From Flavobacterium sp. LHD-85 (GTDB lineage: Bacteria; Bacteroidota; Bacteroidia; Flavobacteriales; Flavobacteriaceae), in assembly GCF_030929595.1 (NCBI RefSeq), contig NZ_JAVFVR010000015.1:124001-188000 (forward strand): a DNA stretch of 64,000 nt, given 5' to 3'. Position numbers and translations under genes: made by a program. Shown piece after piece: positions 21,832 through 36,027 of the stretch. The notes under the pieces were generated by a model that was given only the letters and a program-made list of their open reading frames with translations, searched no databases and was not told where the DNA came from. Each line of letters opens with the position of its first letter. Within the stretch, counting starts at the first letter, position 1.

Positions 21832-24800
21832 ATGAACCAGATTTACTCTAAACCCAGGTATTTGTTTCTTTTGTTAGGTTTCTTGATCTGTTCCGTCGGA
21901 ATGGCCCAGTCTCCTTTTCCAAAAAACAAAACGTCTAATGCGCAGACGGCTGTACAATCGCCAGCTGCTAATCAGAAAAAGAATCAAGTTTATCAGAAAA
22001 ACAGCGATTCAAGTGTTAATCAAGAGGATGATGCCAATACTCTTTTGACGCAAAAAAGCATAAATGGAAAAACGCTTTCGCAGGAAGAAAGTGATGATGT
22101 AAATAAGAGATTAAAAGCAAGCCAGAAGCTTTTTAATAAAAGCGGAAGCGCTTCAACAGCTAAAAATCTTCAAACAACAGACAGCACAAAAGTGAGATCT
22201 TTTGCAAAATCTTCTAATTTGACTATCCGTAATGTATTTGAAGTTAAAAAAGCAGATTTCGAACTTTCTAATGCAGACAAAATGCAGCTGAGATCGGTTT
22301 CAGACAAACACGGCAGAAGTTTGGCAACCTATCAGCAAATGCATAATGCTGTTCCTGTTGAAGGCGCTATTTATAAAGTAAGAGATAACAAGAGCAAAAT
22401 TGAAGCATTTGGGCATATCAGTAAAAAATTGCCTGCAAACAGTAATTATAAAGTAAATGCGTCGGCCGCTTTACAAAACGCATTAAATACTGTAAATGCT
22501 AAAGAATATGTTTGGCAGAGCAAAAAACTATCGTCTTTAGTCCATAAAAAAATCAGTACAAAACCACAGGGAGAATTGGTTTATGTTGGGCCTAATTTTT
22601 CTTCAGAATTGACAGAATATCATTTGGCATGGAAATTCGACGTTTTTGCTACAAATCCGCAGTCAAGCCAGACGATTTATGTTGATGCCAATACCGGAAA
22701 AGTCATTTTAAAAATTGATTTAAGCAGAGATCTTCGTTCGTCTTCTTCGCCTTATGCAGACGGAAGAAGTGCAATTGGTAAAGGAAAAGCAAGATTTGCG
22801 GGAGATGTAACTTTTGGAACTACTCAATATGCAGATGGTTACAGATTGGAGGATTTAGTAGGAAAGTATAAAGTACAGATGTATACTTTAAACATGAATC
22901 ATGCGGAACACGCATCTGATGAAGTCTTAACCGAATTTATCGATGAAGATAACAATTGGAATGATTTGTACAATAAGGATCACGACGAAGCAGCAATTGA
23001 TATTCATTGGGGAATTCAAAAGACTTTGAACTATTACGAAGAAAAATTTGACCGTAATAGTGTTGATGATAAAGGAATGACCATTTTTGCATTGGCGCAT
23101 TTAGGAACTAATGTTCAAAATGCCTCTTGGACAGGAGGATGGGCACAGTTTGGAGACGGAGATAAACAGCCTTTTGTGAGTTTAGGAATTACTGGACATG
23201 AAATGACTCATGCTGTAACACAATTCTCTGCAGGATTGATTTATCAGGGAGAATCTGGAGCAATGAATGAATCTTTTAGTGATATTTTCGGGATTTCTAT
23301 AGAGCTGTATGCCGCAAAAGATAGTACAAAGGATATTTGGCTGCTAGGTGACGAATTATATTCTCACGGAAGTTTGAGAAGTATGGCAAATCCAAAAGCG
23401 GCTGGACAACCGGATACTTATGGAGGTGAATTTTGGACAAACCCGGCAAATACAAGTTATGATAATGGCGGTGTGCACCAGAACAGCGGAATTACCAATT
23501 ATTGGTATTATCTGTTAGTAGAAGGAGGAGAAGGCGTAAATGACCTTAACAACAGTTATAGCGTTAAACCAATCGGATTGGCTAAGGCTGAGAAAATTGC
23601 TTATTTAGCGCTTACCGAATATTTGTCACCTTCTTCAAATTTCAGCGACATGCGTCAGGCGACTTTGATGGCTGTAGAAGATTTGTATGGTCTAGGTTCT
23701 GAAGAGTTTAAACAAGTTACTAATGCTTGGTATGCCATCGGTGTAGGTACAGCTTATGCAGATAGACAAATAACTATTGTTTCGGTAGAAAATCCGTCAA
23801 CATCTTGCGGACCATTAAAAGGAGATGAGCCTTTTTATATTACAGTAAGAAATACAGGAACTAAGATCATTAAAGCTGATGAAGGTTTAAATTTCAAATT
23901 AAGAGCCATGGCTAGCGCACTTGGCAGACTTATTACTTTTTATACCAATGATGGAGAAGTTCCTTTTACAAAAGATTTAGGAATTGGAGAAGAAACAACT
24001 GTTGCAATAAAAAGCAAAATCCCATATCAGATAAATGCGACGAGCTATGTAGAAGTTAAAGTAGATCTTGATCCTATTGTAGATTTTGGCGTTAAAGAGG
24101 GATATTCTTTTGTTACGGGGATTTACGTTGGTACTGCACAAAAAGATTTTGATATTAAAGCTACGGCTTTAGATCTTCCAATGTATACAGGAGATTTGCT
24201 AATGTCAAGTTATACTCCTGCTATTACAATTTTTAATTTAGGCTGTCAGGATATTCCAGCAGGAACTGTTTTAAAAGTTGGATATGCAAATACAAAAGCA
24301 GGAAGCACAACAATTTGGAAAGATGTGACATTGCAGACTGCTTTCAAAGCAAATTCAGAAATGAAAATAACTTTTGATACTGCGGTCGATTTATCAGCTG
24401 CAGGTTTACACACTTATGAAGCTTATGTAACCTATGACAAAGATCCTATTACTACAAATAATAGTATTATAAATGGGGCTTACAGTGATGTTATAACACA
24501 ATTTCCTTATACAGAAGGATTCGAGAGAACGCCAGGAGGATGGAATACAAAAGCGTTAAGCGGGAATCAGAAGTTTGTATTTCAAAATTATCCAGCATCT
24601 TTTAGAACTGTTAAGTCACAATATATGTGGGGAATGGTAGACTTTAAAGGAAATGACAGAATGGGACTTAATTCTGATTTCGTTTTAGAATCGCCAATCT
24701 TTGATTTTACCAATGTGGTTTCTCCTTATGTAGAGTTCGATTTGTATTATTTATTGCATAGAACGTACGATGGTTTAATCGTTGAATATTCGGAAGATAA

Positions 24801-27800
24801 AGGTAAAAGCTGGAAAAAAATAAATACAGTTAATTATCCGGAAATAGAACACAATAATGATTTATTTGATGGCGGCTGGTTTACGGGAGCAAATAATAGT
24901 CTGAAAAAAGATCCGTATCAAATTCGTTTAAATGAATTGGCAGGAAAGAAAGCGGCTATTCGTTTCCATGTAAAATCAGATGATTATTATGACGGATTCT
25001 TAGGCGGATTTATAGATAACATTTTGGTAAGTGATGCACCTTACGATTTAGAAGTTGTATCTGCAAAATTAGACGCTGGTAAATGTGATATCAATAATAA
25101 TAACGCTGCCATAATTGCTAAAGTAACAAACAATTTTGCGACAGCAAGTCAGGAAGTTAATATCACAACTAAAGTTCTTGATGCTGCAAAAGTGGAGATT
25201 TTTTCAAAAATAGAAAAAACAACTTTAAACTTCGCAAGGTTTAAAGACACAATAAGCTATTCTATTCCTAATATTAATTTAAAGAATGTTGGAGAACATA
25301 CCATTTCGGTTTCTGTTTTTCCTGTGGACATGGCAAAAGACCTTAAACAAGGAAACAATGCTGTAACATTAACATACGATAATTGGAATAACGAAGACAT
25401 GAAAGTTTCTGCACTTCCGTACAAAATGGACTTTGAAGACGCTTCTAAATACAAAGGATGGAGAACTTCTGAGAATAAAGGTTCTGCAGGATGGAAACAT
25501 GGAGTACGAGCAGATTTAGGCTCTCCAGCATGGTTTATTGCAGATCATACCAAATTTATGGCAAGTAATGATGATAAATGCAATTGTGATGCTTCCAACG
25601 ATATGCTGGTTTCTCCAGTATTTGATTTAACCAATTACAAAGAAGCGCATTTATCTTTTGATGGTTTTGGAGATCCGCAGCAATGGTCAGACGGTTATGT
25701 AAAAGTAAGTACCGACGGAGGAACAACTTGGAAAGAAGTGTTTAAAATGCCTTATTATGGCGCTTGGTTTGGATATAATGTTGACTTAAGTGCGTATGCA
25801 GGGAATTCTTGCGTACAGCTTGCTTTTCAGCATAATGACAATGGCTTTTTTGCGAATGGTTTTGCAGTAGATAACATTGAAATTACACCAACGAAGAGTA
25901 ATTTACAATTATCGAATTTAGTGGTAGGTGAAACCGTTTACGAAGATGCGCCTACGCATGAGTTTTACATTAATGCAAGAAATGTAGCTTATAAAACATT
26001 GGAGAAAATTACTCTTAAATATCAAATTCTTCAGAACGGAAACGCTATCGGTGAACCAGTTTCATTAGAAAGAACCCAAACAATACGACAAGGCGAAACT
26101 CTAGTTTATAAAATAGACGGTTTGCCTAAATTAGCAGCTGGAAACTATGAAATTAAAGTGCAGGCAACTGCCGATGGAGAGGCAAGTACAAATGTTAAAA
26201 GCCTAACTGCATCTTTTCAAGTTGCTGAGAAAGCATTGGAGTTGAGCGAAGAGAATTTCTCTAGCCTGACGCAAGGTTCAATATTTGGATCAAAAGGGTT
26301 TATTTCTAATCAAAGCGATGAAAATTATCCATGGAGAGCGGTTACTACTCCAGATAATACTAATCTAACGGTTCCGTTGAAGAATAGAACGGGAGATGCT
26401 GGCGGAAAACTATTATACAGTCAGCTAGAAGGCTATTATTACTATAGCGAATTAATTTCTCCACTTTATAAACTATCTGAAAATACTACAGCTTTAGAGT
26501 TTTACTACGCTCTGCAAAGCAATGTTAATGATGCTTTAATTGTAGATATTAAGCCAGTTGGCGGAGAATGGACTGAAGCTTGGAGAGCAACAAGTAAAGG
26601 AACTTACGTAGATACAGAATGGCAGAAAGCGGCATTAAATATTACGAAATACGCTGGAAAATCAGTTTTATTCCGTTTTAGACATGCAAAATCAGATGGA
26701 TATTCTTATTTGGTTTTAGACGATCTTAAAGTAATGAGTGAGCCTGTTTTAGACGTTTCTGTTCAAATTTTATCTCCAAAGGATATTTGCGGCAATAGCG
26801 AAGTAAAAGTTAGACTTACAAACGAAGGACAAGTTGCTATTAAAGAAAATTCTATCCAGTTAGATTTAGAATATGTTAATACGTCAGAAAAAATTTCAGA
26901 AGCCATTGCATCAGGAATTCCGGTTGGAGAAAGTATCGAGTATACTTTTATCAAACAGCCTAAATTAGATGATTCTGGAGATTCTCATGTATTTGCCATT
27001 AATGCAAAAATGGAGAATGATGCTATTGAACAAAACAATAACATCAAGAATTATGTATATCAAGGAGTACCATCAGATTTTAAAATGTTTGACACGTCTG
27101 TTATCCATGCTTATGCAGGTAAAAGTGTGTATCTGGATGCAGAAAGAAATCTTGTGGCTAGAGAGTTAGAAGCAACTTCATACAAATGGAGTTCAGGTGA
27201 AAGCACCAATTCTATCAATGTTGATAAAGCAGGAGATTATAGCGTAACGGCAACATTGGAAAACGGATGTACTCTTACCGAAAAAGTAACAGTAGTATTT
27301 GATACTTTCGAATCTGGTCTGCCAAGCGGTGATGTTTGCGGTCCAGAAGTAGTATTAAATCCAGGAAATTATGCTGCTTACGAATGGTTTGATGGTTCTA
27401 CAGATCCAACTTTCACGACTACAGAAAGTGGTGAGTACTATGTAACGGTTTACAACGAACACGGATTAGGTAAAATTTTCACTACAACTATTAATGTTCT
27501 TGAAAATATAGTTCCGGAGATTCAGGCATTAGAAGGAAATAAAATTACAGCTTCTGCTGATGCGACAGGTTATCAGTGGTATTTAAACGGAAGAGTTTTA
27601 CCAAATGCAACCGAAAAAACAGTTGCAACAATTTGGGAAGGAAGCTATAGTCTTCAGGTAACAAATGCGCATGGCTGTACAAGCATGTCTGCTCCAATTG
27701 AATCTAAAGGATTGCTTATCGGAAAATTGACAAATTCTTTCAGAGTGTTCCCAAACCCTGTGGCAGATAATGTAAACATTTTCTTGGCTGAAAAAGCAGA

Positions 27801-27969
27801 AGGTGAGGCTGAAATGAAAATTTATTCTATGGAAGGTAATGCGGTTTGGAGTAAAACTTACAGTGCAGTTCCGTCTAGCGTAAATGTAAGTCAGCTAACT
27901 ACTGGGGTTTACATTTTAGATTGTACCATACAAGGTAAAAAGTACACAGCTAAGATTATTAAAAAGTAA
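21832..27969 (+). CDS. Giant M4 (thermolysin-type) metalloprotease with T9SS sorting tail
   Basis: The 2045-residue protein has a signal peptide (to about residue 26), then an FTP/PepSY-type propeptide (residues about 120-300, including YQQMHNAVPVEGAIYKVRDN). The peptidase M4 domain has zinc ligands His456 and His460 in HEMTH, third ligand Glu480 in NESFSDIFG, and the catalytic His549 in GGVHQNSGITNYWYYLL. After about residue 640 come about 1300 residues of beta-rich modules: repeated CARDB-like and MAM/jelly-roll-like domains (FDFTNVVSPYVEFDLYY; FDLTNYKEAHLSFDGFG) and Ig-like segments with ACxW-type SYKWSSGESTNSINV. The last ~75 residues are a type A T9SS sorting domain (FRVFPNPVADNV ... VYILDCTIQGKKYTAKIIKK). 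It should be secreted across the outer membrane and either released or anchored to the surface, degrading extracellular protein. It is much longer than typical M4 enzymes because of the accessory modules. Confidence 0.95.
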   Translation: MNQIYSKPRYLFLLLGFLICSVGMAQSPFPKNKTSNAQTAVQSPAANQKKNQVYQKNSDSSVNQEDDANTLLTQKSINGKTLSQEESDDVNKRLKASQKLFNKSGSASTAKNLQTTDSTKVRSFAKSSNLTIRNVFEVKKADFELSNADKMQLRSVSDKHGRSLATYQQMHNAVPVEGAIYKVRDNKSKIEAFGHISKKLPANSNYKVNASAALQNALNTVNAKEYVWQSKKLSSLVHKKISTKPQGELVYVGPNFSSELTEYHLAWKFDVFATNPQSSQTIYVDANTGKVILKIDLSRDLRSSSSPYADGRSAIGKGKARFAGDVTFGTTQYADGYRLEDLVGKYKVQMYTLNMNHAEHASDEVLTEFIDEDNNWNDLYNKDHDEAAIDIHWGIQKTLNYYEEKFDRNSVDDKGMTIFALAHLGTNVQNASWTGGWAQFGDGDKQPFVSLGITGHEMTHAVTQFSAGLIYQGESGAMNESFSDIFGISIELYAAKDSTKDIWLLGDELYSHGSLRSMANPKAAGQPDTYGGEFWTNPANTSYDNGGVHQNSGITNYWYYLLVEGGEGVNDLNNSYSVKPIGLAKAEKIAYLALTEYLSPSSNFSDMRQATLMAVEDLYGLGSEEFKQVTNAWYAIGVGTAYADRQITIVSVENPSTSCGPLKGDEPFYITVRNTGTKIIKADEGLNFKLRAMASALGRLITFYTNDGEVPFTKDLGIGEETTVAIKSKIPYQINATSYVEVKVDLDPIVDFGVKEGYSFVTGIYVGTAQKDFDIKATALDLPMYTGDLLMSSYTPAITIFNLGCQDIPAGTVLKVGYANTKAGSTTIWKDVTLQTAFKANSEMKITFDTAVDLSAAGLHTYEAYVTYDKDPITTNNSIINGAYSDVITQFPYTEGFERTPGGWNTKALSGNQKFVFQNYPASFRTVKSQYMWGMVDFKGNDRMGLNSDFVLESPIFDFTNVVSPYVEFDLYYLLHRTYDGLIVEYSEDKGKSWKKINTVNYPEIEHNNDLFDGGWFTGANNSLKKDPYQIRLNELAGKKAAIRFHVKSDDYYDGFLGGFIDNILVSDAPYDLEVVSAKLDAGKCDINNNNAAIIAKVTNNFATASQEVNITTKVLDAAKVEIFSKIEKTTLNFARFKDTISYSIPNINLKNVGEHTISVSVFPVDMAKDLKQGNNAVTLTYDNWNNEDMKVSALPYKMDFEDASKYKGWRTSENKGSAGWKHGVRADLGSPAWFIADHTKFMASNDDKCNCDASNDMLVSPVFDLTNYKEAHLSFDGFGDPQQWSDGYVKVSTDGGTTWKEVFKMPYYGAWFGYNVDLSAYAGNSCVQLAFQHNDNGFFANGFAVDNIEITPTKSNLQLSNLVVGETVYEDAPTHEFYINARNVAYKTLEKITLKYQILQNGNAIGEPVSLERTQTIRQGETLVYKIDGLPKLAAGNYEIKVQATADGEASTNVKSLTASFQVAEKALELSEENFSSLTQGSIFGSKGFISNQSDENYPWRAVTTPDNTNLTVPLKNRTGDAGGKLLYSQLEGYYYYSELISPLYKLSENTTALEFYYALQSNVNDALIVDIKPVGGEWTEAWRATSKGTYVDTEWQKAALNITKYAGKSVLFRFRHAKSDGYSYLVLDDLKVMSEPVLDVSVQILSPKDICGNSEVKVRLTNEGQVAIKENSIQLDLEYVNTSEKISEAIASGIPVGESIEYTFIKQPKLDDSGDSHVFAINAKMENDAIEQNNNIKNYVYQGVPSDFKMFDTSVIHAYAGKSVYLDAERNLVARELEATSYKWSSGESTNSINVDKAGDYSVTATLENGCTLTEKVTVVFDTFESGLPSGDVCGPEVVLNPGNYAAYEWFDGSTDPTFTTTESGEYYVTVYNEHGLGKIFTTTINVLENIVPEIQALEGNKITASADATGYQWYLNGRVLPNATEKTVATIWEGSYSLQVTNAHGCTSMSAPIESKGLLIGKLTNSFRVFPNPVADNVNIFLAEKAEGEAEMKIYSMEGNAVWSKTYSAVPSSVNVSQLTTGVYILDCTIQGKKYTAKIIKK

Positions 27970-28682: not shown

Positions 28683-28709
28683 AGTTAGTAACACCTTCAT
28701 AACTGTTTA

Positions 28710-28740
28710 AAACCACTCTTTTTTAGGAGTGGTTTTTTTG
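28710..28740 (+). terminator. Rho-independent terminator
   Basis: AAACCACTC (28710-28718) pairs with GAGTGGTTT (28727-28735) and runs into a T-stretch. It closes the protease/barrel unit before the riboswitch promoter. Confidence 0.85.
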
Positions 28741-28764: not shown

Positions 28765-28796
28765 TTTGCAGACACCATACCTGCGTCATATATTTG
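28765..28796 (+). promoter_or_regulatory. Promoter of the corrinoid-uptake operon
   Basis: TTTG (28765-28768), a 20-bp spacer and TATATTTG (28789-28796) match the Bacteroidota vegetative promoter exactly. Transcription should begin near 28803, just at the 5' edge of the riboswitch. Confidence 0.7.
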
Positions 28797-28801
28797 CGCC
28801 A

Positions 28802-29010
28802 GATTTTGGTCTGCTTTTTTCAATCTGAAATAAGCAGTTAAAAGGGAATCAGGTGCAAATCCTGAACAGACCCGCTACTGTAAGTTCTACACAAAGTCTT
28901 TAAACATACTAATGCCATTGTCCCGCTTTGCGGGGTGAGAAGGCCGTTTAAAGATAGAATAAGTCAGGAGACCTGCCACGATCACATAGTTTAAAACTTT
29001 CGCGGTATGA
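28802..29010 (+). promoter_or_regulatory. Cobalamin riboswitch
   Basis: The conserved core reads GGGAATCAGGTGCAAATCC (28844-28862), then GACCCGCTACTGTAAG (28869-28884), a variable hairpin CCCGCTTTGCGGGG (28922-28935), and the B12-box type AAGTCAGGAGACCTGCC (28961-28977). These are the hallmark elements in the right order and spacing. The aptamer precedes a BtuB-like receptor gene, as is usual. A start-codon hairpin at 29074-29107 may be its expression platform. Confidence 0.93.
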
Positions 29011-29030
29011 AGTTGATGACAAGAGAATAA

Positions 29031-29049
29031 CCTGCTATTGCATAGCGGG
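29031..29049 (+). promoter_or_regulatory. Short hairpin 3' of the riboswitch aptamer
   Basis: CCTGCTAT pairs with ATAGCGGG around TGC (8 bp with one G-U pair). No T-run follows, so it does not look like a terminator; it may be part of the switching region. Confidence 0.4.
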
Positions 29050-29073
29050 ATTACTACTGTTATATAATTACGG

Positions 29074-29107
29074 CATCACGCAAAGTTTATTTAATAAAAT
29101 CGTGATG
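29074..29107 (+). promoter_or_regulatory. Start-codon sequestering hairpin (candidate riboswitch expression platform)
   Basis: CATCACG (29074-29080) is perfectly complementary to CGTGATG (29101-29107), and the right arm contains the ATG start (29105-29107) of the receptor gene. The loop has an inner TTTATT/AATAAA dyad that would extend the fold. Closing this stem would hide the initiation site, consistent with translational control by the upstream aptamer. Confidence 0.5.
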
Positions 29108-31153
29108 TATAATTTGAGTAAAACTTTATTTTCTGTTTTTTTAGCACTTGTTCCTTTTTTGCTTCATTCGCAAGCGGTGACTGACAGTTCGCGGGTTTTA
29201 AAAGAAGTGGTTTTAAAAGGAAAACCTTATCAGGAAGTTATTCCGGTGCAAAGCCTTTCGGGCGTTCTGCTCGAAAATCTTTCTAGTCATAATGTGGCCG
29301 ATGCGCTTCGTTATTTTGCCGGAACTCAAATTAAAGATTATGGAGGAGTCGGCGGACTCAAAACGGTTGATGTCCGAAATATGGGAACGCACCATGTTGG
29401 TGTTTTTTATGACGGAATTCAGCTTGGAAACGCTCAAAACGGCGTAACCGATTTAGGAAAATATTCGCTTGACGATATGGAATCGCTTACCATGTACAAT
29501 GGTCAGAAAAGCGAAATTTTTCAGTCAGCGAAAGACTTTGCATCAGCTTCCACGATTTATTTGCGAACTAAACGTCCTGCTTTTATAGGCAATAAAAAAA
29601 CAAATTTGCTGGTTCGTTACAAAACAATGTCCATCAATTATCACGATCCTTCTTTTAGATGGGAACAAAAGCTGAGCGATAAAGTGAGTTTGAGCGTAAG
29701 TTCTGAATACATTAAGTCGAATGGACAATATAAATTTAGATACAAAAGAAAAAATCAAGACGGCAGCATTGCCTACGATACTACAGCTACACGATGGAAC
29801 AGTGATATAGAAGCATTCCGATTTGAATCTGGACTTTATGGAAAAATAAATAAAGGAACTTGGGACGCCAAAGTCTATTATTACGATTCTGAACGCGGTG
29901 CGCCGGGGGCCATTGTAGAAAATAAGTTTAAAGACGGTTTCAGACAATTCGACAAGAACTTTTTCGGACAATCTTCTTTAACGAAAGACGTTTCAGAAAA
30001 ATATAAATTTCAGCTAAAAGGAAAATTCGCTTACGATTACACGCATTATATTGCACGAGATACTACCAATGTTTTAGGCGAAACCGTGACCGAAGGCGCA
30101 CAATCTGATGATAGTTATTATCAGCAGGAAGCTTATTTTTCGGCTGTTAACATGTACAGCATTTTACCTACTTGGGATGTTTCGCTCTCAACCGATTTTC
30201 AATACAATAAATTAAATGCGACAAGAAGAGGGATCCAAACGCAATTCTCTTTTCCACACCGTTATACGGCGTTAGTTTCTTTGGCAACTTCGTATCGATA
30301 TGAAGGCTTTAAAGTTTTAGGGAATGTACTCGCAACCCGCGTCATCGAAGAGGTAAAGTATAATGCCAAAGCACCCAATAAAACCGAATTTACACCTGCT
30401 TTATTTCTTGGTTATACTCCGTTTAAGAAATACGATTTCAATTTAAGGGCTTTCGCTAAACGTATTTTCAGAATGCCAACTTTCAACGATTTGTATTATA
30501 CCATGATTGGTTCACGCACTTTGAGACCAGAATACATGAATCAGTACGATGTTGGTTTTACGTATAATTTTCCTGTAAGAGAAAGCTTTTTCGATAGATT
30601 TTCTTTTCAGGCAGATGCTTATTATACCAATACAAAAGACAAAATTGTTGCTGCTCCAACAGGAAATTTATTTCGATGGATGATGACCAATATCGGACAA
30701 GTGAAAGGAAAGGGAATCGAAACGGTTCTGAATATGGGAACTCATTTTAATAAGCTAAAACTTGATGCTAATTTAACGTATACCTATTCTAAAAGTCAGG
30801 ATTTTACAAAGTTTGTCGGTTTAGAAATGTCTTCTTATGGAGATCAGATTCCGTACACACCTTGGCATAGCGGATCTGGAATTTTAAACGCCAATTATGA
30901 ATCTTGGAACTTCAATTACAGTTTCATTTACGTCGGAAAGCGCTACAACGGCAATGTCAATAATATCAAAGTGAATGAAGTGCAGCCTTGGTATACACAT
31001 GATTTGGCGATTCAGAAATCTTTCGCATTCAAAAATTACAAATTAAACGGAACGATTGAAGTCAACAACGCTTTTAATCAGCAATATGAAGTGATTTACA
31101 ATTATCCGATGCCAGGGCGAACATTCAAATTTATAATCAGTTTTGAGTTATGA
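29105..31153 (+). CDS. btuB: TonB-dependent corrinoid receptor, BtuB-like
   Basis: I prefer the ATG at 29105, with 682 residues, over the GTG at 29102. Signal peptide to about residue 23 (LVPFLLHSQA). A TonB-box-like VLKEVVLKG precedes the plug domain (residues about 45-150: VADALRYFAGTQIKDYGGVGGLKTVDVRNMGTHHVGVFYDGIQLGN). The remaining ~520 residues form a 22-strand barrel ending in MPGRTFKFIISFEL with a terminal aromatic/hydrophobic motif. There is no CarboxypepD-like extension, so this is the short BtuB type rather than SusC. The cobalamin riboswitch directly upstream identifies a corrinoid substrate. The stop overlaps the next ATG (ATGA at 31150-31153), showing translational coupling to the BtuG-like lipoprotein. 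Confidence 0.9.
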   Translation: MYNLSKTLFSVFLALVPFLLHSQAVTDSSRVLKEVVLKGKPYQEVIPVQSLSGVLLENLSSHNVADALRYFAGTQIKDYGGVGGLKTVDVRNMGTHHVGVFYDGIQLGNAQNGVTDLGKYSLDDMESLTMYNGQKSEIFQSAKDFASASTIYLRTKRPAFIGNKKTNLLVRYKTMSINYHDPSFRWEQKLSDKVSLSVSSEYIKSNGQYKFRYKRKNQDGSIAYDTTATRWNSDIEAFRFESGLYGKINKGTWDAKVYYYDSERGAPGAIVENKFKDGFRQFDKNFFGQSSLTKDVSEKYKFQLKGKFAYDYTHYIARDTTNVLGETVTEGAQSDDSYYQQEAYFSAVNMYSILPTWDVSLSTDFQYNKLNATRRGIQTQFSFPHRYTALVSLATSYRYEGFKVLGNVLATRVIEEVKYNAKAPNKTEFTPALFLGYTPFKKYDFNLRAFAKRIFRMPTFNDLYYTMIGSRTLRPEYMNQYDVGFTYNFPVRESFFDRFSFQADAYYTNTKDKIVAAPTGNLFRWMMTNIGQVKGKGIETVLNMGTHFNKLKLDANLTYTYSKSQDFTKFVGLEMSSYGDQIPYTPWHSGSGILNANYESWNFNYSFIYVGKRYNGNVNNIKVNEVQPWYTHDLAIQKSFAFKNYKLNGTIEVNNAFNQQYEVIYNYPMPGRTFKFIISFEL

Positions 31154-32295
31154 AAAAGAGCTTTTTAAAAATACTATTCGTTTTAGCCGTAACGATTTTA
31201 ATGATTTCCTGTCGTGAAGATGAAACTGTATTTCTTTCTTCAGATACAGCCGTAGCCGCGCCAAGAAGCGACGGAAATATTGAAGGTTTCTATCTTTTAA
31301 ACGAGGGAAATATGGGCATGAATCGTGCGAGTTTGGATGTTTTCAATTACAGAACAGGAAATTATACCACAGATGTTTATTCCGAACGAAATCCGAGTGT
31401 GGTAAAGGAATTGGGAGATGTTGGAAACGATATCAAAATCTATGGAAATAAGGTTTATGCAGTAATAAATTGCTCCAACAAAGTTGAGGTTTTAGAAAAA
31501 TGGACAGCAAAACGCATTAAAAAAATTGACATTCCCAATTGCCGTTATGTGGCTTTTTATAAAGACAAAGCCTATGTGAGTTCGTATTCGGGACCAGTTG
31601 CCATTAATCCGAATGCAGAAATCGGTTTTGTAGCTGAAATTGATACTACTTCATTAGAAATAAAAAGAAAAGTGACCGTTGGTTATCAGCCTGAACAAAT
31701 GGTTATTCATAACGGAAAATTATATGTCGCAAATTCTGGCGGTTACAGGGTTCCAAATTACGATAGAACTGTTTCTGTTATTGATCTGGCGACTTTCACA
31801 GAAATCAAAAAAATAGATGTGGGCATTAATTTGTATAGCATGCAGATTGACAGTCGCGGCGATATTTATGTGAGTTCACGAGGCGATTATTACAACACGC
31901 CATCTAATCTTTTTGTGATTGATACACAGACAGACGAAAAGAAAATGCAGCTGGATATTCCTGTTTCTGGAACTTGTCTGGTAGATGATTTATTGTATTA
32001 CTACAGCGTTTCTTGGAGTTACTTATCAGGCAGTAATAAAGTGAGTTACGGAATTTTGGACACCAAAACCAAAAAGGTAATCACCAATCAGATTATTACG
32101 GACGGAACCGACAAAAAAATCATGATTCCGTACGGACTTCAAGTCAATCCCGAAACCAAAGAAATCTACATTACCGACGCTCAAAACTATGTCGTAACGG
32201 GCTACATCTACTGTTTTACGCCCGACGGAAAATTAAAATGGAAAACGACCGCAGGAAATATTCCTGCCCATATTGCTTTTATAACTAAAAAATAA
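31150..32295 (+). CDS. btuG: BtuG-like surface lipoprotein, beta-propeller corrinoid binder
   Basis: The 381-residue protein has a lipobox ending at Cys21 (ILMISC) followed by the acidic REDE, resembling the Bacteroidota lipoprotein export signal for the outer cell surface. The rest is a YncE-like propeller with repeated strands such as YLLNEGNMGMNRASLDVF, VKELGDVGNDIKIYGNKVYAVINC, RTVSVIDLATFTEIKKIDVG and YGLQVNPETKEIYITDA. In Bacteroides, BtuG is a seven-bladed propeller lipoprotein that binds cobalamin on the cell surface and hands it to BtuB; the phrases above match my recollection of that family. Coupling to the receptor gene by a 4-nt overlap supports a receptor-BtuG complex. The conclusion that it binds corrinoids is by homology and context. 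Confidence 0.85.
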   Translation: MKKSFLKILFVLAVTILMISCREDETVFLSSDTAVAAPRSDGNIEGFYLLNEGNMGMNRASLDVFNYRTGNYTTDVYSERNPSVVKELGDVGNDIKIYGNKVYAVINCSNKVEVLEKWTAKRIKKIDIPNCRYVAFYKDKAYVSSYSGPVAINPNAEIGFVAEIDTTSLEIKRKVTVGYQPEQMVIHNGKLYVANSGGYRVPNYDRTVSVIDLATFTEIKKIDVGINLYSMQIDSRGDIYVSSRGDYYNTPSNLFVIDTQTDEKKMQLDIPVSGTCLVDDLLYYYSVSWSYLSGSNKVSYGILDTKTKKVITNQIITDGTDKKIMIPYGLQVNPETKEIYITDAQNYVVTGYIYCFTPDGKLKWKTTAGNIPAHIAFITKK

Positions 32296-32304
32296 CCCTT
32301 AAAA

Positions 32305-33507
32305 ATGATGAATAAAAATCTTTTTAAAATCGCTTTGTTTTCAATTCTCTTTTTGGGATTTGTGGCTTGTGATAAAGACAATGATAATGAAGAAAATCTG
32401 CTCCCCGCAGAAGTTCTGAAAGAATCCTACACAATTGACCGTTTTAAGGTTCTGAATATCGCAACAAACCTTCCGAGTACAGCAAAACTGACTTGGAGTG
32501 TTAAAGATTCTATTATTTCAGAAAATGCTGATTTGGATTTTATCAGTCCGTTTCAAAAAAGTTATCCATTGACTTTAAAAGTTGAAATAAACGGAGAAAC
32601 CAAGATTTATAACTCGTCAATCAATGTTACAAAAGAAACGGGAACATATAGTAAATATATTTCTAATGTATTTGATTTTCGTCCTGCAGTTGGACAGTTT
32701 ACAAATGAAATTCCACAATATACCGTAAGGAATACAGAAGCCAATATGATTTCTGCCGCCAAGAAAGCAATTGCAGGTTCAAACACCACAATGATTTCAC
32801 TAGGCGGTTTTGGAGGTTACGTGGTTTTTGGTTTCGATCACACGATTCCAAATATGGGCGGACGAGATTTTAAGGTTTTAGGAAATGCTTTTTGGGGAAA
32901 TGAAGCAAACGAAGCGCGTGCAGGATCTTGCGAACCCGGAATTATTATGGTGGCTTACGACAAGAATAAAAATGGAAAACCTGACGAAGACGAATGGTAC
33001 GAAATTGCTGGAAGTGAATATTTTAAAAACACGACTACAAAAAACTATTCTATTACTTATTTCAAACCTGATCCAAATAAATTGCCAGTTGCAGGAAATG
33101 AATTTTGGCAAGTTAATACCGAATACATTAAATGGCAGGACAACGCTGGAAAATCAGGATATAAATCACAAAATGTGTTTCATGAACAAAATTACTATCC
33201 ACTTTGGATTGCCGATGCTTCTTATAGCTTGAAAGGAACGCGAATAGCAGATAACTTCTACGATCAAAGCGGAGAAGGTTCGTATTGGGTAGGCAAATCG
33301 TTTGAATTTGGTTATGCCGATAATGCTCCAAATAGTGATGAAGCTTCGAATATCGATATTTCTTGGGCAGTAGATAAAAACGGAAAATACTTAAAACTTC
33401 CTGGAATAGATTTCGTAAAAATATACACCGCAATCAATCAGGAAGCAGGCTGGCTTGGCGAAGTTTCTACAGAGGTTTCTGGGGCTTACGATTTACATCT
33501 TAACTAA
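32305..33507 (+). CDS. Surface lipoprotein of corrinoid-uptake loci
   Basis: This 400-residue lipoprotein has a lipobox cysteine at residue 22 (LGFVAC) and then DKDNDNEEN, again fitting the surface-export signal. After an Ig/PKD-like N-terminal part (YTIDRFKVLNIATNLPSTAKLTWSV) comes a conserved domain with SLGGFGGYVVFGFDHTIPN, GRDFKVLGNAFWGNE and an EF-hand-like DKNKNGKPDEDEWYEIAG calcium loop. Similar proteins are found next to BtuB/BtuG genes in Bacteroidota and are usually annotated only as cell-surface proteins. It lies 9 bp after the BtuG-like gene in the riboswitch operon. A role as an accessory corrinoid or carrier binder is inferred. Confidence 0.75.
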   Translation: MMNKNLFKIALFSILFLGFVACDKDNDNEENLLPAEVLKESYTIDRFKVLNIATNLPSTAKLTWSVKDSIISENADLDFISPFQKSYPLTLKVEINGETKIYNSSINVTKETGTYSKYISNVFDFRPAVGQFTNEIPQYTVRNTEANMISAAKKAIAGSNTTMISLGGFGGYVVFGFDHTIPNMGGRDFKVLGNAFWGNEANEARAGSCEPGIIMVAYDKNKNGKPDEDEWYEIAGSEYFKNTTTKNYSITYFKPDPNKLPVAGNEFWQVNTEYIKWQDNAGKSGYKSQNVFHEQNYYPLWIADASYSLKGTRIADNFYDQSGEGSYWVGKSFEFGYADNAPNSDEASNIDISWAVDKNGKYLKLPGIDFVKIYTAINQEAGWLGEVSTEVSGAYDLHLN

Positions 33508-33520
33508 CACAGTAAAATTT

Positions 33521-33659
33521 TTAACACATAGAGACATAATTTTTTAGAAACTCAGAAAGGCGTTTCACTTTATTTTAAAACACATAGCTATGTGTTAGAA
33601 ACTAGTTTCTTTTTTCTATTCTTTTCGATGAAATAAAATCTATGTCTCTATGTGTTTAA
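33521..33659. repeat. Nested inverted repeats built on one ACACATAG core
   Basis: Outer arms 33521-33538 (TTAACACATAGAGACATA) and 33641-33659 (TATGTCTCTATGTGTTTAA) are complementary but for one inserted T. Between them, 33579-33596 is a perfect 18-bp palindrome AACACATAGCTATGTGTT that uses the same core. The structure fills the 188-bp gap before the T9SS propeller gene and may attenuate or process the operon transcript. Confidence 0.7.
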
Positions 33660-33695
33660 AAAAATAGTAACACAACATTTTAAAACCATAACATT

Positions 33696-35975
33696 ATGAA
33701 GAAAAACTACTTTATAGTAATAATGCTTTTTTTTGCATTTCTAACCAATGCACAGATAACAGTGCAAGGCGTTCCTAGAAATGACATTAAATTAAATACA
33801 GTTACACAAAAACAACTAACAGCAAAAAGTGCCAATGCGACCACTTTTGATGATATTCAGTTTTGGGTTGGTACAGGTGCCAATAAAGCAGCATTTGCTG
33901 TGCAATGGAACGATGGAAAAAATGCAGACGCTTTAATCTGGGGATTTAAATGGGATGGAAGTGCAACTGGCGAAGATATGATGAAAGCCATTGCAAAAGC
34001 CGACCCACGTTTTTATACTCTTTTATTGCAAGGAACACAATTTGGAACTGCAATTGGTGGATTCGGTTTCGATTTGGATGGAGCCAACACCATTGGATTG
34101 TACAAAAGCGGAAATCTAACTTATCCTTATTATCCTGTGAGCGGTATTGTAAATACAGCGGCTTATGATTTTGACGAATACACACCAATTGATGCATCAG
34201 ATCACTGGCAGTCTGGCTGGACAACTAAAGGATATTGGTCGTATTGGGTAAGAGATGATGTGAATAATAGTTTTGATTATTCTGGATTAGGAGCATCAAG
34301 CCGAGTTTTACAAAATGGTTCTTGGGATGTTTGGAATTTTAATGTTTCGTTTGCAGAAGAACCCATTGCTGCATTTACTCCTGTAACACCATACTCTAAT
34401 GTGATAGATTTTACAAAGGGGTATTTTATGGTAAACGAAGAGTGGTTTGGCCACACCAATGGATCTGTAAATTTTGTTAGCAATGACGGGAAAATTAATT
34501 ATAGGGTTTATAGCGATGTAAATGAAAATAAAGCTTTTGGAGCTACAACACAATACGGAACTATTTATGGGGATAAATTTTATTTTGTTTCTAAACAGCC
34601 TAAAGATGGAGGCGATACGCAATATACTCCAGGCGGAAGGCTAGTTGTTGCCGATGCGTTAACCATGAAAACCCTTGCAGAATTTGATAATGTTGGAGGA
34701 GGCGATGGTCGTTCTTTTGTTGGAGTTGATGAAAAAACGGGATATATAGGCGCTTCAAACGGAATTTTTATTTTTGATATTGCCAATATGAAAGTAGGAA
34801 CTCTCATTGCAGGAACAGGAGGCGGAAGCCAGTATGCTGGGCAGATTGGAAATATGATTCGCACTTCTCAATATGTATTTGCTGTAAAACAAAACGGTGG
34901 AATTTTGGTCATTGATCCTAAAACAAATAGTGTCGTAAAAACGATTACAGGCGCGTTTCATTCGGTTACGCAATCTAAAGATGGAAGCATTTGGGGAATT
35001 CAAAACAAGAAAATAATTAATATTAACCCCTTAACTTTTGCAACTATTGAATATGCCATACCAACCACTCAATATTTAGGTTCTTGGGGAGCATGGAATG
35101 CTGGTAGTTTCACTTATAGCAATAAAGAAAATGCTTTGTATTGGATGAATTCTGTCAACGCATTTACTTCGGGTGTTCAAATTATAAAATTTGATGTGGC
35201 AGCCAAAACATTCAATGAAAGTTTTGCGAAACTTCCAGGACAAACAGGAACTTTTAAGCAAATTCCTTATGGAGCAGCATTGAGAATTGATCCTGTTTCA
35301 GATCAGATTATTGTAAACACAACCGAAAGTGGTTTTGGAGCACATTACCAAAAAAACTGGATTCATACTTTTGACAATACAGGAAAATTAGTTGATACCA
35401 AAACTTTAAATGATTATTATTGGTTTCCTGCCATGACAGTCTTTCCAGATAATGCAGCTCCAATTGTAAATGCAATTCTGCCTTCGGAAATTTCAACAGG
35501 AAGTCCGACAATTATTGATTTAAAAACAGTGGTTTCAGATGAAGATAATTTGTCTGGTGCGATTGTAAAAAACATAAAATCTAATAGTGATGAAACTATT
35601 GTTTCAGTAGAAATTAATGCGAATGAAGAACTGATTGTAACGCCAAAAACAGGAGGAAAAGCAACAATTGTAATCAGTTTTAATTCTAATGGAAAAATAG
35701 TCGAAAAATCGATTTTGGTTGATACAGCGGTTTTAGGCAGAGACGAATTCACGAAAGTGCAATTATCAATTTATCCAAATCCAGTTTCAGATTATCTGAA
35801 TATTAGTACTGAAGATGAAATTACCGATGTTGTGATTTATGATGTTAATGGAAGAACCATCAATACGAGACTAAATAACAATCAAATTGATGTAAGTGAT
35901 TTTGCCAAAGGTTTTTATATTATCAATATTGTGACTGATAAAGCAAAGTATACTCAGAAATTTATTAAAAGATAA
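33696..35975 (+). CDS. T9SS-exported propeller protein of the corrinoid locus (DUF5074-like)
   Basis: The 759-residue protein has a signal peptide (MKKNYFIVIMLFFAFLTNAQ). The N-terminal domain (residues about 45-230) is marked by DIQFWVGTGANKAAFAVQW, ALIWGFKWDGSATGEDMMKAIAKAD and GGFGFDLDG. A second propeller-like region (about 235-590) has DUF5074-type blades (YGTIYGDKFYFVSKQ, GGRLVVADALTMKTLAEF, VGVDEKTGYIGASNGIFIFDI, ILVIDPKTNSVVKTI). A short Ig-like segment and a type A T9SS tail (IYPNPVSDYLNIST ... FYIINIVTDKAKYTQKFIKR) follow. So the locus pairs a lipid-anchored BtuG-like propeller with a T9SS-secreted one. A role in capturing corrinoids, free or protein-bound, is inferred from position downstream of the riboswitch. 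A terminator follows. Confidence 0.8.
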   Translation: MKKNYFIVIMLFFAFLTNAQITVQGVPRNDIKLNTVTQKQLTAKSANATTFDDIQFWVGTGANKAAFAVQWNDGKNADALIWGFKWDGSATGEDMMKAIAKADPRFYTLLLQGTQFGTAIGGFGFDLDGANTIGLYKSGNLTYPYYPVSGIVNTAAYDFDEYTPIDASDHWQSGWTTKGYWSYWVRDDVNNSFDYSGLGASSRVLQNGSWDVWNFNVSFAEEPIAAFTPVTPYSNVIDFTKGYFMVNEEWFGHTNGSVNFVSNDGKINYRVYSDVNENKAFGATTQYGTIYGDKFYFVSKQPKDGGDTQYTPGGRLVVADALTMKTLAEFDNVGGGDGRSFVGVDEKTGYIGASNGIFIFDIANMKVGTLIAGTGGGSQYAGQIGNMIRTSQYVFAVKQNGGILVIDPKTNSVVKTITGAFHSVTQSKDGSIWGIQNKKIININPLTFATIEYAIPTTQYLGSWGAWNAGSFTYSNKENALYWMNSVNAFTSGVQIIKFDVAAKTFNESFAKLPGQTGTFKQIPYGAALRIDPVSDQIIVNTTESGFGAHYQKNWIHTFDNTGKLVDTKTLNDYYWFPAMTVFPDNAAPIVNAILPSEISTGSPTIIDLKTVVSDEDNLSGAIVKNIKSNSDETIVSVEINANEELIVTPKTGGKATIVISFNSNGKIVEKSILVDTAVLGRDEFTKVQLSIYPNPVSDYLNISTEDEITDVVIYDVNGRTINTRLNNNQIDVSDFAKGFYIINIVTDKAKYTQKFIKR

Positions 35976-35995: not shown

Positions 35996-36027
35996 AAAGG
36001 CTGTCACCAAATTGACAGCTTTTTTTT
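35996..36027 (+). terminator. Rho-independent terminator of the corrinoid operon
   Basis: GCTGTCA (36000-36006) pairs with TGACAGC (36013-36019), followed by eight T residues. It lies 20 bp past the stop codon at 35975. Confidence 0.85.

Follow-up and report, generated by a model that had tools for sequence, protein, structure and literature searches.

Positions 28765-35975 of the window (the whole stretch of Flavobacterium sp. LHD-85 DNA analysed, 64,000 nucleotides) form one unit that consists of a cobalamin riboswitch, btuB, btuG, btuH and a gene for a T9SS cargo protein (gene 4), with all four genes on the + strand. We conclude that this is probably a B12-repressed corrinoid scavenging operon, in which the T9SS-exported product of gene 4 captures corrinoid for BtuG/BtuB. 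Judged from its sequence and structural models, gene 4 most likely encodes an extracellular corrinoid catcher with hand-over to BtuG/BtuB, as the combination of an exported N-terminal domain (N-domain; predicted to resemble in shape one half of animal B12 carriers such as intrinsic factor and transcobalamin) with a BtuK1-related propeller suggests a B12 catcher outside the outer membrane.

In the proposed mechanism, corrinoid scarcity would lead to expression of the unit through the riboswitch. BtuB would serve as the outer-membrane channel, BtuG as its lid and binding lipoprotein, and BtuH as a surface lipoprotein capturing corrinoid. The T9SS would carry the gene 4 protein across the outer membrane, where it would be surface-anchored or released, capture corrinoid with its N-terminal beta-grasp, its BtuK1-type propeller, or both, and pass it on to BtuG/BtuB.

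Operon anatomy and the BtuG and BtuH lipoproteins

An upstream terminator-like hairpin (28709-28736, + strand; 12-pair stem with a T run) ends the preceding unit, and another one lies at the end of the operon (35996-36023, + strand); both are consensus matches only. The cobalamin riboswitch (RF00174; 28790-28994, + strand) scores 106.4 bits against a gathering score of 31.5 (E 1.3e-25) and covers the whole model (1-189 of 189). When corrinoid is scarce, riboswitches of this family allow the downstream unit to be expressed. A cobalamin riboswitch was present in all nine loci scanned, which were taken from the best 80 of 186 relatives. The four-gene order is kept in 78 of these 80 loci, a biased sample, as the 80 are the closest of the 186.

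The first gene (29105-31153, + strand; start ATG 29105, alternative GTG 29102) encodes a BtuB-like TonB-dependent receptor with plug and barrel domains; its match to the vitamin B12 receptor model TIGR01779 (E 1.5e-22, 79.9 bits) is far below the equivalog cut-off of 599.7. It overlaps by 4 bp with the gene for a BtuG-like propeller lipoprotein (31150-32295, + strand), and the same -4 overlap was found in 78/78 relatives measured. The gene positions and the coupling of the receptor/BtuG-like pair are as the sequence-only reading of this DNA had given them. The BtuG-like protein matches the BtuG entries 8ptf, 8ptd and 8blw of the PDB (E 1.7e-52 to 1.2e-51) and has a Cys within residues 13-45 in all 78 relatives. 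It is a homologous propeller encoded directly next to btuB and would presumably bind B12 and form a complex with BtuB.

The product of the third gene (32305-33507, + strand) is BtuH, as identified by homology. Its C-terminal B12-binding domain (residues ~107-399, 32623-33501) matches the H-domain of 8blw (E 9.7e-68) and 7biz (BtuH2; E 7.2e-42), and its N-terminal part is weakly PKD-like (PKD_3, E 0.0085, below the cut-off). All eight residues reported to contact B12 in BtuH2 (Gln333, Asn399, Phe401, His476, Tyr510, Trp511, Trp577, Leu578; PMC8941943) are identical in the window protein (Q131, N194, F196, H293, Y327, W328, W383, L384), and each is conserved in 82-86 of 86 sequences; three of the eight differ in the H-domain of BtuG1. 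The homology and these eight identities led us to reject the view of this protein as an undescribed one. The EF-hand-like D-x-N-x-N loop that had been noticed in this lipoprotein is present (D-x-N-x-N-G, residues 219-230; 32959-32994, + strand); its counterpart in the alignment with BtuH2 is DINGNGLPDDEW, and D219, N221, N223, D227 and E230 are kept in 86/86 sequences. The riboswitch, together with homologues of BtuG and BtuH proteins of known structure, supports the original assignment of the cluster as a corrinoid-uptake operon.

The gap between btuH and gene 4 contains a MITE-like multi-copy palindromic element (33524-33655, no strand assigned) with the inverted ends ACACATAGAGACATA and 14 exact matches in the genome (0 with a reversed control); it probably has no role in the operon. 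The genome also carries a B12-dependent MetH domain. For cobJ/cbiH, the sole biosynthesis family tested, the genome gave no match above the cut-off and three below it, so that B12 auxotrophy is a possibility at most.

Domains and export of the gene 4 protein

Gene 4 (33696-35975, + strand) encodes a protein of 759 amino acids comprising the N-domain (residues ~50-225; 33843-34370), a DUF5074 propeller (34416-35447; 402.4 bits against a cut-off of 27.2), an Ig-like linker with approximate limits (35448-35735; Big_9 weak, E 0.0086, below the cut-off; modelled with beta strands) and, at the C-terminus, a T9SS type A sorting domain (35769-35966; PF18962 56.7 bits; TIGR04183 56 bits against a cut-off of 23), all on the + strand. 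Of its earlier description as a two-domain T9SS-exported protein, the export tail stands and the number of domains has to be raised. SprA, the sole T9SS component tested, is encoded in the genome (2775 bits). Residues 1-45 of the gene 4 protein contain no Cys that could serve as a lipoprotein anchor, and the protein ends in the T9SS tail; among 79 relatives, 19 possess a Cys within residues 11-45. Since lipoprotein anchoring was not found, we call the propeller BtuK-type rather than BtuK.

This propeller is matched over its whole length by the profile comparison with BtuK1 (PDB 9s6c, 'B12 binding protein'; profile positions 240-583, E 6.3e-16), and its best structural match is BtuK1 as well (Z 31.3). 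BtuK1 was reported in 2025 to bind cobalamin (PMC12751083) and BtuH was described in 2022 (PMC8941943), so the former statement that the last two proteins lack a functional description does not hold. According to the same 2025 report (PMC12751083), the close paralogue BtuK2 does not bind cobalamin; as its structure (BT1487, 4r5o) also matches the gene 4 propeller (Z 27.7), a BtuK-type propeller need not be a cobalamin binder. From sequence and model we infer that the propeller, the N-domain or both may bind corrinoid. The whole-protein model (pLDDT 69, pTM 0.63, N-domain poor) is uninformative on domain packing.

The N-domain has no family in Pfam or NCBIfam, and no published description of it was found in the open-licence literature (preprints excluded). 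Its AlphaFold2 model (mean pLDDT 84) is a beta-grasp folded like the beta-domain that haptocorrin, intrinsic factor and transcobalamin share, the structurally aligned part corresponding to ~33873-34355. In the structure comparison, the top 15 entries were haptocorrin, intrinsic factor, transcobalamin or 3u7z from R. gnavus (Z 9.9-11.7), and the first other fold followed at Z 6.2; against 4kki, 2pmv, 2bb6 and 5np4, the rmsd of this predicted (not solved) structure was 2.0-2.4 over 101-108 residues (Z 10.6-11.7). We take 3u7z and DUF4430 to be members of the transcobalamin-like clade of the SLBB superfamily. In the model, helix H72-82 is followed by a hairpin of strands E86-94 and E97-105, an arrangement that marks this clade. 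The N-domain alignment contains near-invariant aromatic residues and invariant glycines, which may or may not correspond to the two conserved glycines of the SLBB superfamily.

At the sequence level, the DUF4430 model (PF14478) gave 0 matches at E <=10 to 36 N-domains, with HMMER filters dropping most weak matches, and had no match in the genome itself; hhalign of the N-domain against one DUF4430 protein gave 1.2%, which is not significant. Membership in DUF4430 thus agrees with the fold and finds no match by sequence, whereas an assignment to DUF4465/BtuJ was rejected, as there was no Pfam match. The best hit of the N-domain profile among PDB sequences was unrelated (E 0.32); searches of viral structures, and of PDB sequences and plasmids with the DUF4430 protein, gave no lead. 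The kinship of the N-domain with animal B12 carriers is thus a matter of predicted structure, with no support from sequence.

Riboswitch association of the N-domain and alternative functions

The N-domain is patchily distributed: it was found in 13/199 genomes of the genus, 3/199 of the family, 14/395 of the class and at least 8/395 of the phylum, the last figure being a lower bound since scoring stopped at 10 candidates for any one genome. The proposal that T9SS cargo in corrinoid uptake is an aerobic-Bacteroidota variant is hence too broad in view of the genus and phylum figures. Participation of the cargo itself is supported by the conserved operon order, the BtuK1-type propeller and the link between N-domain and cobalamin riboswitch. 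A cobalamin riboswitch adjoins 26 of the 28 strong N-domain loci fetched, and the other two are cut by contig ends; these loci share descent, so that the counts are not independent trials, and L154 and L155 probably represent the same strains as L090 and L117, whose contigs have identical lengths. The 28 exclude five of the 13 matched genus genomes as well as two weak matches (G309/L045 and G240/L046; E 2.5e-4 and 9.7e-4; 26/30 if included), which lack a riboswitch as well as any match to BtuB, BtuG or BtuH and look like another family. L038, one of the 28, possesses the riboswitch and has no btuB/btuG match in its stretch; its reading frame extends into other sequence.

At five loci (L063, L069, L070, L152, L153), the gene directly behind the riboswitch encodes two or four N-domains and a T9SS tail alone, and nothing within the stretch matches BtuB, BtuG or BtuH of the window. 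These genes bear on the best surviving of the alternative readings (not all of which are mutually exclusive), namely that gene 4 binds no corrinoid and is a structural or docking part (holding BtuH or BtuBG, or BtuL-like) with inherited folds and lost pockets. BtuK2 and BtuL of B. thetaiotaomicron do sit in such operons without binding cobalamin (PMC12751083); nevertheless, riboswitch control of N-domain genes that have no such partners in their stretch, and retention of the near-invariant aromatic residues, make this reading rather unlikely.

Less likely still, the N-domain could be an ordinary beta-grasp that binds a polysaccharide or a surface partner, its resemblance to transcobalamin being just a common arrangement. 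The beta-grasp is a common fold, no link to transcobalamin was found by sequence in the searches described above, and Foldseek ranked an unrelated chain first and placed transcobalamin entries at weak E-values (0.26-1.8). Against this stand the wide gap between B12 carriers (Z 9.9-11.7) and other folds (<=6.2), the post-helix hairpin described as a mark of the transcobalamin-like clade (PMC1796856), and the riboswitch beside nearly all strong N-domain loci. Finally, gene 4 might act on corrinoid carriers or bound corrinoid (e.g., strip B12 from proteins) rather than simply catch free B12, for which one can cite its predicted location outside the outer membrane and the ability of BtuG2 to take B12 from human intrinsic factor (PMC6143338), yet domain profile searches found no protease or hydrolase domain in gene 4, and we regard this function as improbable.

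Comparison with known systems

The preferred reading of gene 4 as an exported corrinoid catcher extends what is known of surface B12 capture in Bacteroidota, which comes mainly from gut Bacteroides with lipoprotein binders: a Flavobacterium/Chryseobacterium lineage adds an exported protein with two corrinoid-type modules. The cobamide loci of B. thetaiotaomicron are reported to encode BtuB-BtuG, BtuGH, BtuH, BtuK1/K2, BtuJ and BtuL (PMC12751083, PMC10404256, PMC8941943). They have in common with the window the cobalamin riboswitch, BtuB with a BtuG lipoprotein, the BtuH B12-binding domain and a BtuK-type propeller. However, the propeller of the window belongs to a T9SS cargo protein, in which it follows a new N-terminal domain, rather than to a lipoprotein, and btuG and btuH are separate genes, whereas BtuG and BtuH are fused in BtuG1 of B. 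thetaiotaomicron.

We take IPR026444 to be the T9SS sorting domain. C-terminal export tails on B12-binding proteins are already known from DUF4465, where 229 of 824 sequences carry IPR026444 (PMC12751083). DUF4465/BtuJ proteins, which occur in Bacteroidota and other phyla, are likewise exported and bind B12 (PMC12751083, PMC13398666), but their fold is a jelly-roll, and none of the operon's four proteins matched DUF4465 at E <=1.

The transcobalamin-like clade of the SLBB beta-grasp superfamily was reported from animals, low-GC Gram-positives, planctomycetes and euryarchaea; its members are exported, carry a hairpin that follows the helix and are predicted to be B12 scavengers, one Clostridium member being fused to a beta-propeller (PMC1796856). 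In contrast, the N-domain family is found in Bacteroidota, is T9SS-exported and riboswitch-controlled, and is missed by the DUF4430 model. Its riboswitch link provides genomic, regulatory support from another phylum for the B12-scavenging role that was proposed in 2007 for transcobalamin-like domains of bacteria.

With animal haptocorrin, intrinsic factor and transcobalamin, the N-domain has the predicted beta-domain fold in common, without a sequence match. The alpha/alpha toroid of these carriers was not found in the four operon proteins, and the propeller follows the N-domain instead. Crystals of the isolated beta-domain of transcobalamin have been obtained with cyanocobalamin and with cobinamide (PMC5599065). 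Being small and amenable to testing, the N-domain could help to address the origin of animal carriers. More tentatively, gene 4 may encode a secreted 'corrinophore', whose beta-grasp and BtuK-type propeller would act as jaws clamping one corrinoid, much as the alpha and beta domains of animal carriers close on it, with the loaded protein docking on BtuB-BtuG. If so, the proteins with two or four N-domains would be pure beta-domain versions, and the family would be the equivalent of intrinsic factor in bacteria other than Gram-positives, with its riboswitches as the link to B12.

A riboswitch-led, probable corrinoid-capture operon

A cobalamin riboswitch at 28790-28994 (+ strand, 106.4 bits), the sole Rfam match above the gathering score within the window, is followed on the same strand by btuB (29105-31153), btuG (31150-32295), btuH (32305-33507) and a gene for a T9SS cargo protein (33696-35975, 759 aa; gene 4), and together these elements form one unit. 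BtuB, BtuG, BtuH and the riboswitch are of known kinds. The btuB and btuG genes overlap by 4 bases, as they do in all 78 relatives measured. Terminator-like hairpins flank the unit (28709-28736 and 35996-36023); as the region contains 13 such sites versus 5.0 (sd 2.5) in shuffles, single hairpins are weak evidence. The gap between btuH and gene 4 carries a palindromic multi-copy element (33524-33655) with inverted ends ACACATAGAGACATA, which have 14 exact matches in the genome (0 for the reversed control). Among 78 relatives this gap measures 22-42 bp in 70 and 183-203 bp in 6, and it is called as an overlap in 2. Positions 21832-27969, upstream of the operon but not part of it, encode a thermolysin-like (M4) metallopeptidase of 2045 aa that carries choice-of-anchor J domains and a T9SS tail.

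A scan of named genomes gave 186 relatives, the best 80 of which are titled Flavobacterium, Chryseobacterium, Epilithonimonas, Soonwooa and, once, '[Flexibacter]'. The order btuB-btuG-btuH-gene 4 is intact in 78 of these best 80. Of the remaining two, one has split btuB and gene 4 frames, and the other (L137) has a split btuH, with btuB not found at the thresholds used. The riboswitch was present in 9/9 loci scanned among the best 80.

The btuG product matches BtuG structures with E-values of 1.7e-52 to 1.2e-51, and the btuH product matches the H-domain of BtuG1 (8blw, E 9.7e-68) and BtuH2 (7biz, E 7.2e-42). All eight B12-touching residues of BtuH2 named in PMC8941943 are identical in the window's BtuH (Q131, N194, F196, H293, Y327, W328, W383, L384; chain position equals residue number minus 100, an offset yielding the right residue type at 8/8), and each is conserved in 82 to 86 of 86 sequences. 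Strict identity is unnecessary for binding, since the H-domain of BtuG1 deviates at 3/8 of these positions. The EF-hand-like loop noted in the sequence-only reading is indeed present (BtuH residues 219-230) and can be aligned to the corresponding loop of BtuH2.

The propeller and the N-terminal domain of gene 4

The DUF5074 propeller of gene 4 (402.4 bits) is homologous to PDB entry 9s6c, entitled 'B12 Binding protein - BtuK1' (E 3.4e-9 in a single-sequence search; E 6.3e-16 over the entire propeller with a 38-sequence profile). The same entry also ranks first in the structural comparison of the whole-protein model (Z 31.3); several BtuG entries come within one unit of it. BtuK1 binds cobalamin with a Kd of 0.089 nM (SPR), yet BtuK2 is a non-binder (PMC12751083); the gene 4 propeller is therefore of a B12-binding kind, but its binding cannot be assumed.

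The N-terminal domain (N-domain, residues ~50-225) has its closest named relative in F. tagetis (98% identity). A Pfam search with it gave nothing at E 10 or better, 36 N-domain members gave scattered single matches, each to a different unrelated family (best E 0.039), and no NCBIfam family exceeded its cut-off. An AlphaFold2 model from 36 sequences (mean pLDDT 84.2, pTM 0.83; blocks beyond the first 30 residues at 82-98, the last excepted) predicts a beta-grasp fold. In VIA-align against the PDB its top matches are haptocorrin (Z 11.7, rmsd 2.0 over 102 residues), intrinsic factor (Z 11.7) and transcobalamin (up to 11.3), with the isolated transcobalamin beta-domain at 10.6-10.7 and the R. 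gnavus entry 3u7z at 9.9; the first different fold scores 6.2, and according to the tool, models lacking a clear match typically score 7 to 8. Taken by itself, Foldseek is weak here: rank 1 is an unrelated chain, and transcobalamin entries have E 0.26 to 1.8 with probabilities of at most 0.80; for 5no0, 5np4 and 3u7z the TM by target is 0.65-0.68. The model contains a beta-hairpin after the helix, the mark of the transcobalamin-like clade (PMC1796856). Kinship with the animal carriers is suggested by predicted structure only.

Distribution and arrangements of N-domain genes

N-domain matches occur in 14/395 genomes of the class, and profile matches in 3/199 family and 13/199 genus genomes and in at least 8/395 genomes of the phylum. 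We examined 30 loci, the window included, found by sequence alone; 28 are strong, and the two weak ones (L045, L046) have no B12 context. A cobalamin riboswitch lies within the stretch at 26/28 strong loci, which share descent, so that these are not 26 independent events; the contigs of L039 and L068 stop short of the expected place.

Three arrangements can be distinguished. In (a), the N-domain, a BtuK-type propeller and a T9SS tail form one chain encoded after btuH; L065 has the riboswitch, btuH and gene 4, with btuB and btuG matches absent. In (b), a gene for two N-domains and a tail adjoins btuB and btuG, being first behind the riboswitch in six loci (L035, L036, L037, L040, L042, L043) and after btuB in four (L034, L039, L041, L044). 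In (c), the riboswitch is directly followed by a gene for two or four N-domains and a T9SS tail above the Pfam cut-off (L063 9360-10481, L069 3918-5039, L070 9020-11074, L152 8735-9850, L153 8517-9620), and these five stretches gave no BtuB, BtuG or BtuH matches. A close downstream same-strand gene is absent in 4/5; the exception is L152, where a frame of 497 aa, weakly matching the SusC/RagA type, lies within 90 bases downstream. By eye, repeats 1 and 2 of the (c) proteins differ in kind, and L070 alternates A-B-A-B, as if the two types pair up. The occurrence of these arrangements across several genome families speaks against one frozen neighbourhood.

In L033 (10372-13112), an N-domain stands alone behind a lipoprotein-like start, and a separate DUF4988-DUF5074 gene comes next under the same riboswitch; gene 4 looks like these two genes joined with a T9SS tail gained, and L033 like the unfused form. 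In L038 (7957-9843), the riboswitch is followed by ~90 residues of one N-domain running into a long, by eye RHS-type sequence, a broken-looking case due to either natural insertion or an assembly join.

Corrinoid supply and comparison with known systems

The genome, 5.64 Mb in 39 contigs and 99.93% complete, contains two cobalamin riboswitches. The second belongs to the locus L032 9207-13729 (contig 5), in which cobS-like and cobC-like genes (names read by eye from the sequences) are followed just downstream by the riboswitch, another btuB-like gene and a gene for a lipoprotein with a DUF5074 propeller; this locus resembles one reported in F. psychrophilum, where a TonB receptor stands behind a cobalamin riboswitch near cob genes (PMC9723704). 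A B12-dependent methionine synthase domain is present, and cobJ/cbiH, the one biosynthesis family tested, gave three matches below and none above the curated cut-off, which is compatible with a B12 scavenger.

Most likely, corrinoid shortage would open the riboswitch, the lipoprotein BtuH and the T9SS-exported gene 4 product (anchored or released) would catch corrinoids, and BtuG and BtuB would then take them in. Crystals of the isolated human beta-domain were obtained with cyanocobalamin and cobinamide, and its association with the alpha domain requires added cobalamin (PMC5599065). As the exported gene 4 product unites two corrinoid-type modules in a single chain, we conjecture that its propeller might stand in for the alpha domain of animal carriers in a clamp. 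C-terminal export tails were noted earlier for DUF4465 B12 binders (PMC12751083), and a 2007 proposal saw B12 scavengers in transcobalamin-like beta-grasp proteins from other bacteria, one of which has a propeller (PMC1796856). Within the reach of the literature searches, four things are new: the N-domain family in Bacteroidota, the control of this family by riboswitches, its export through the T9SS and the fusion to a BtuK-type propeller.
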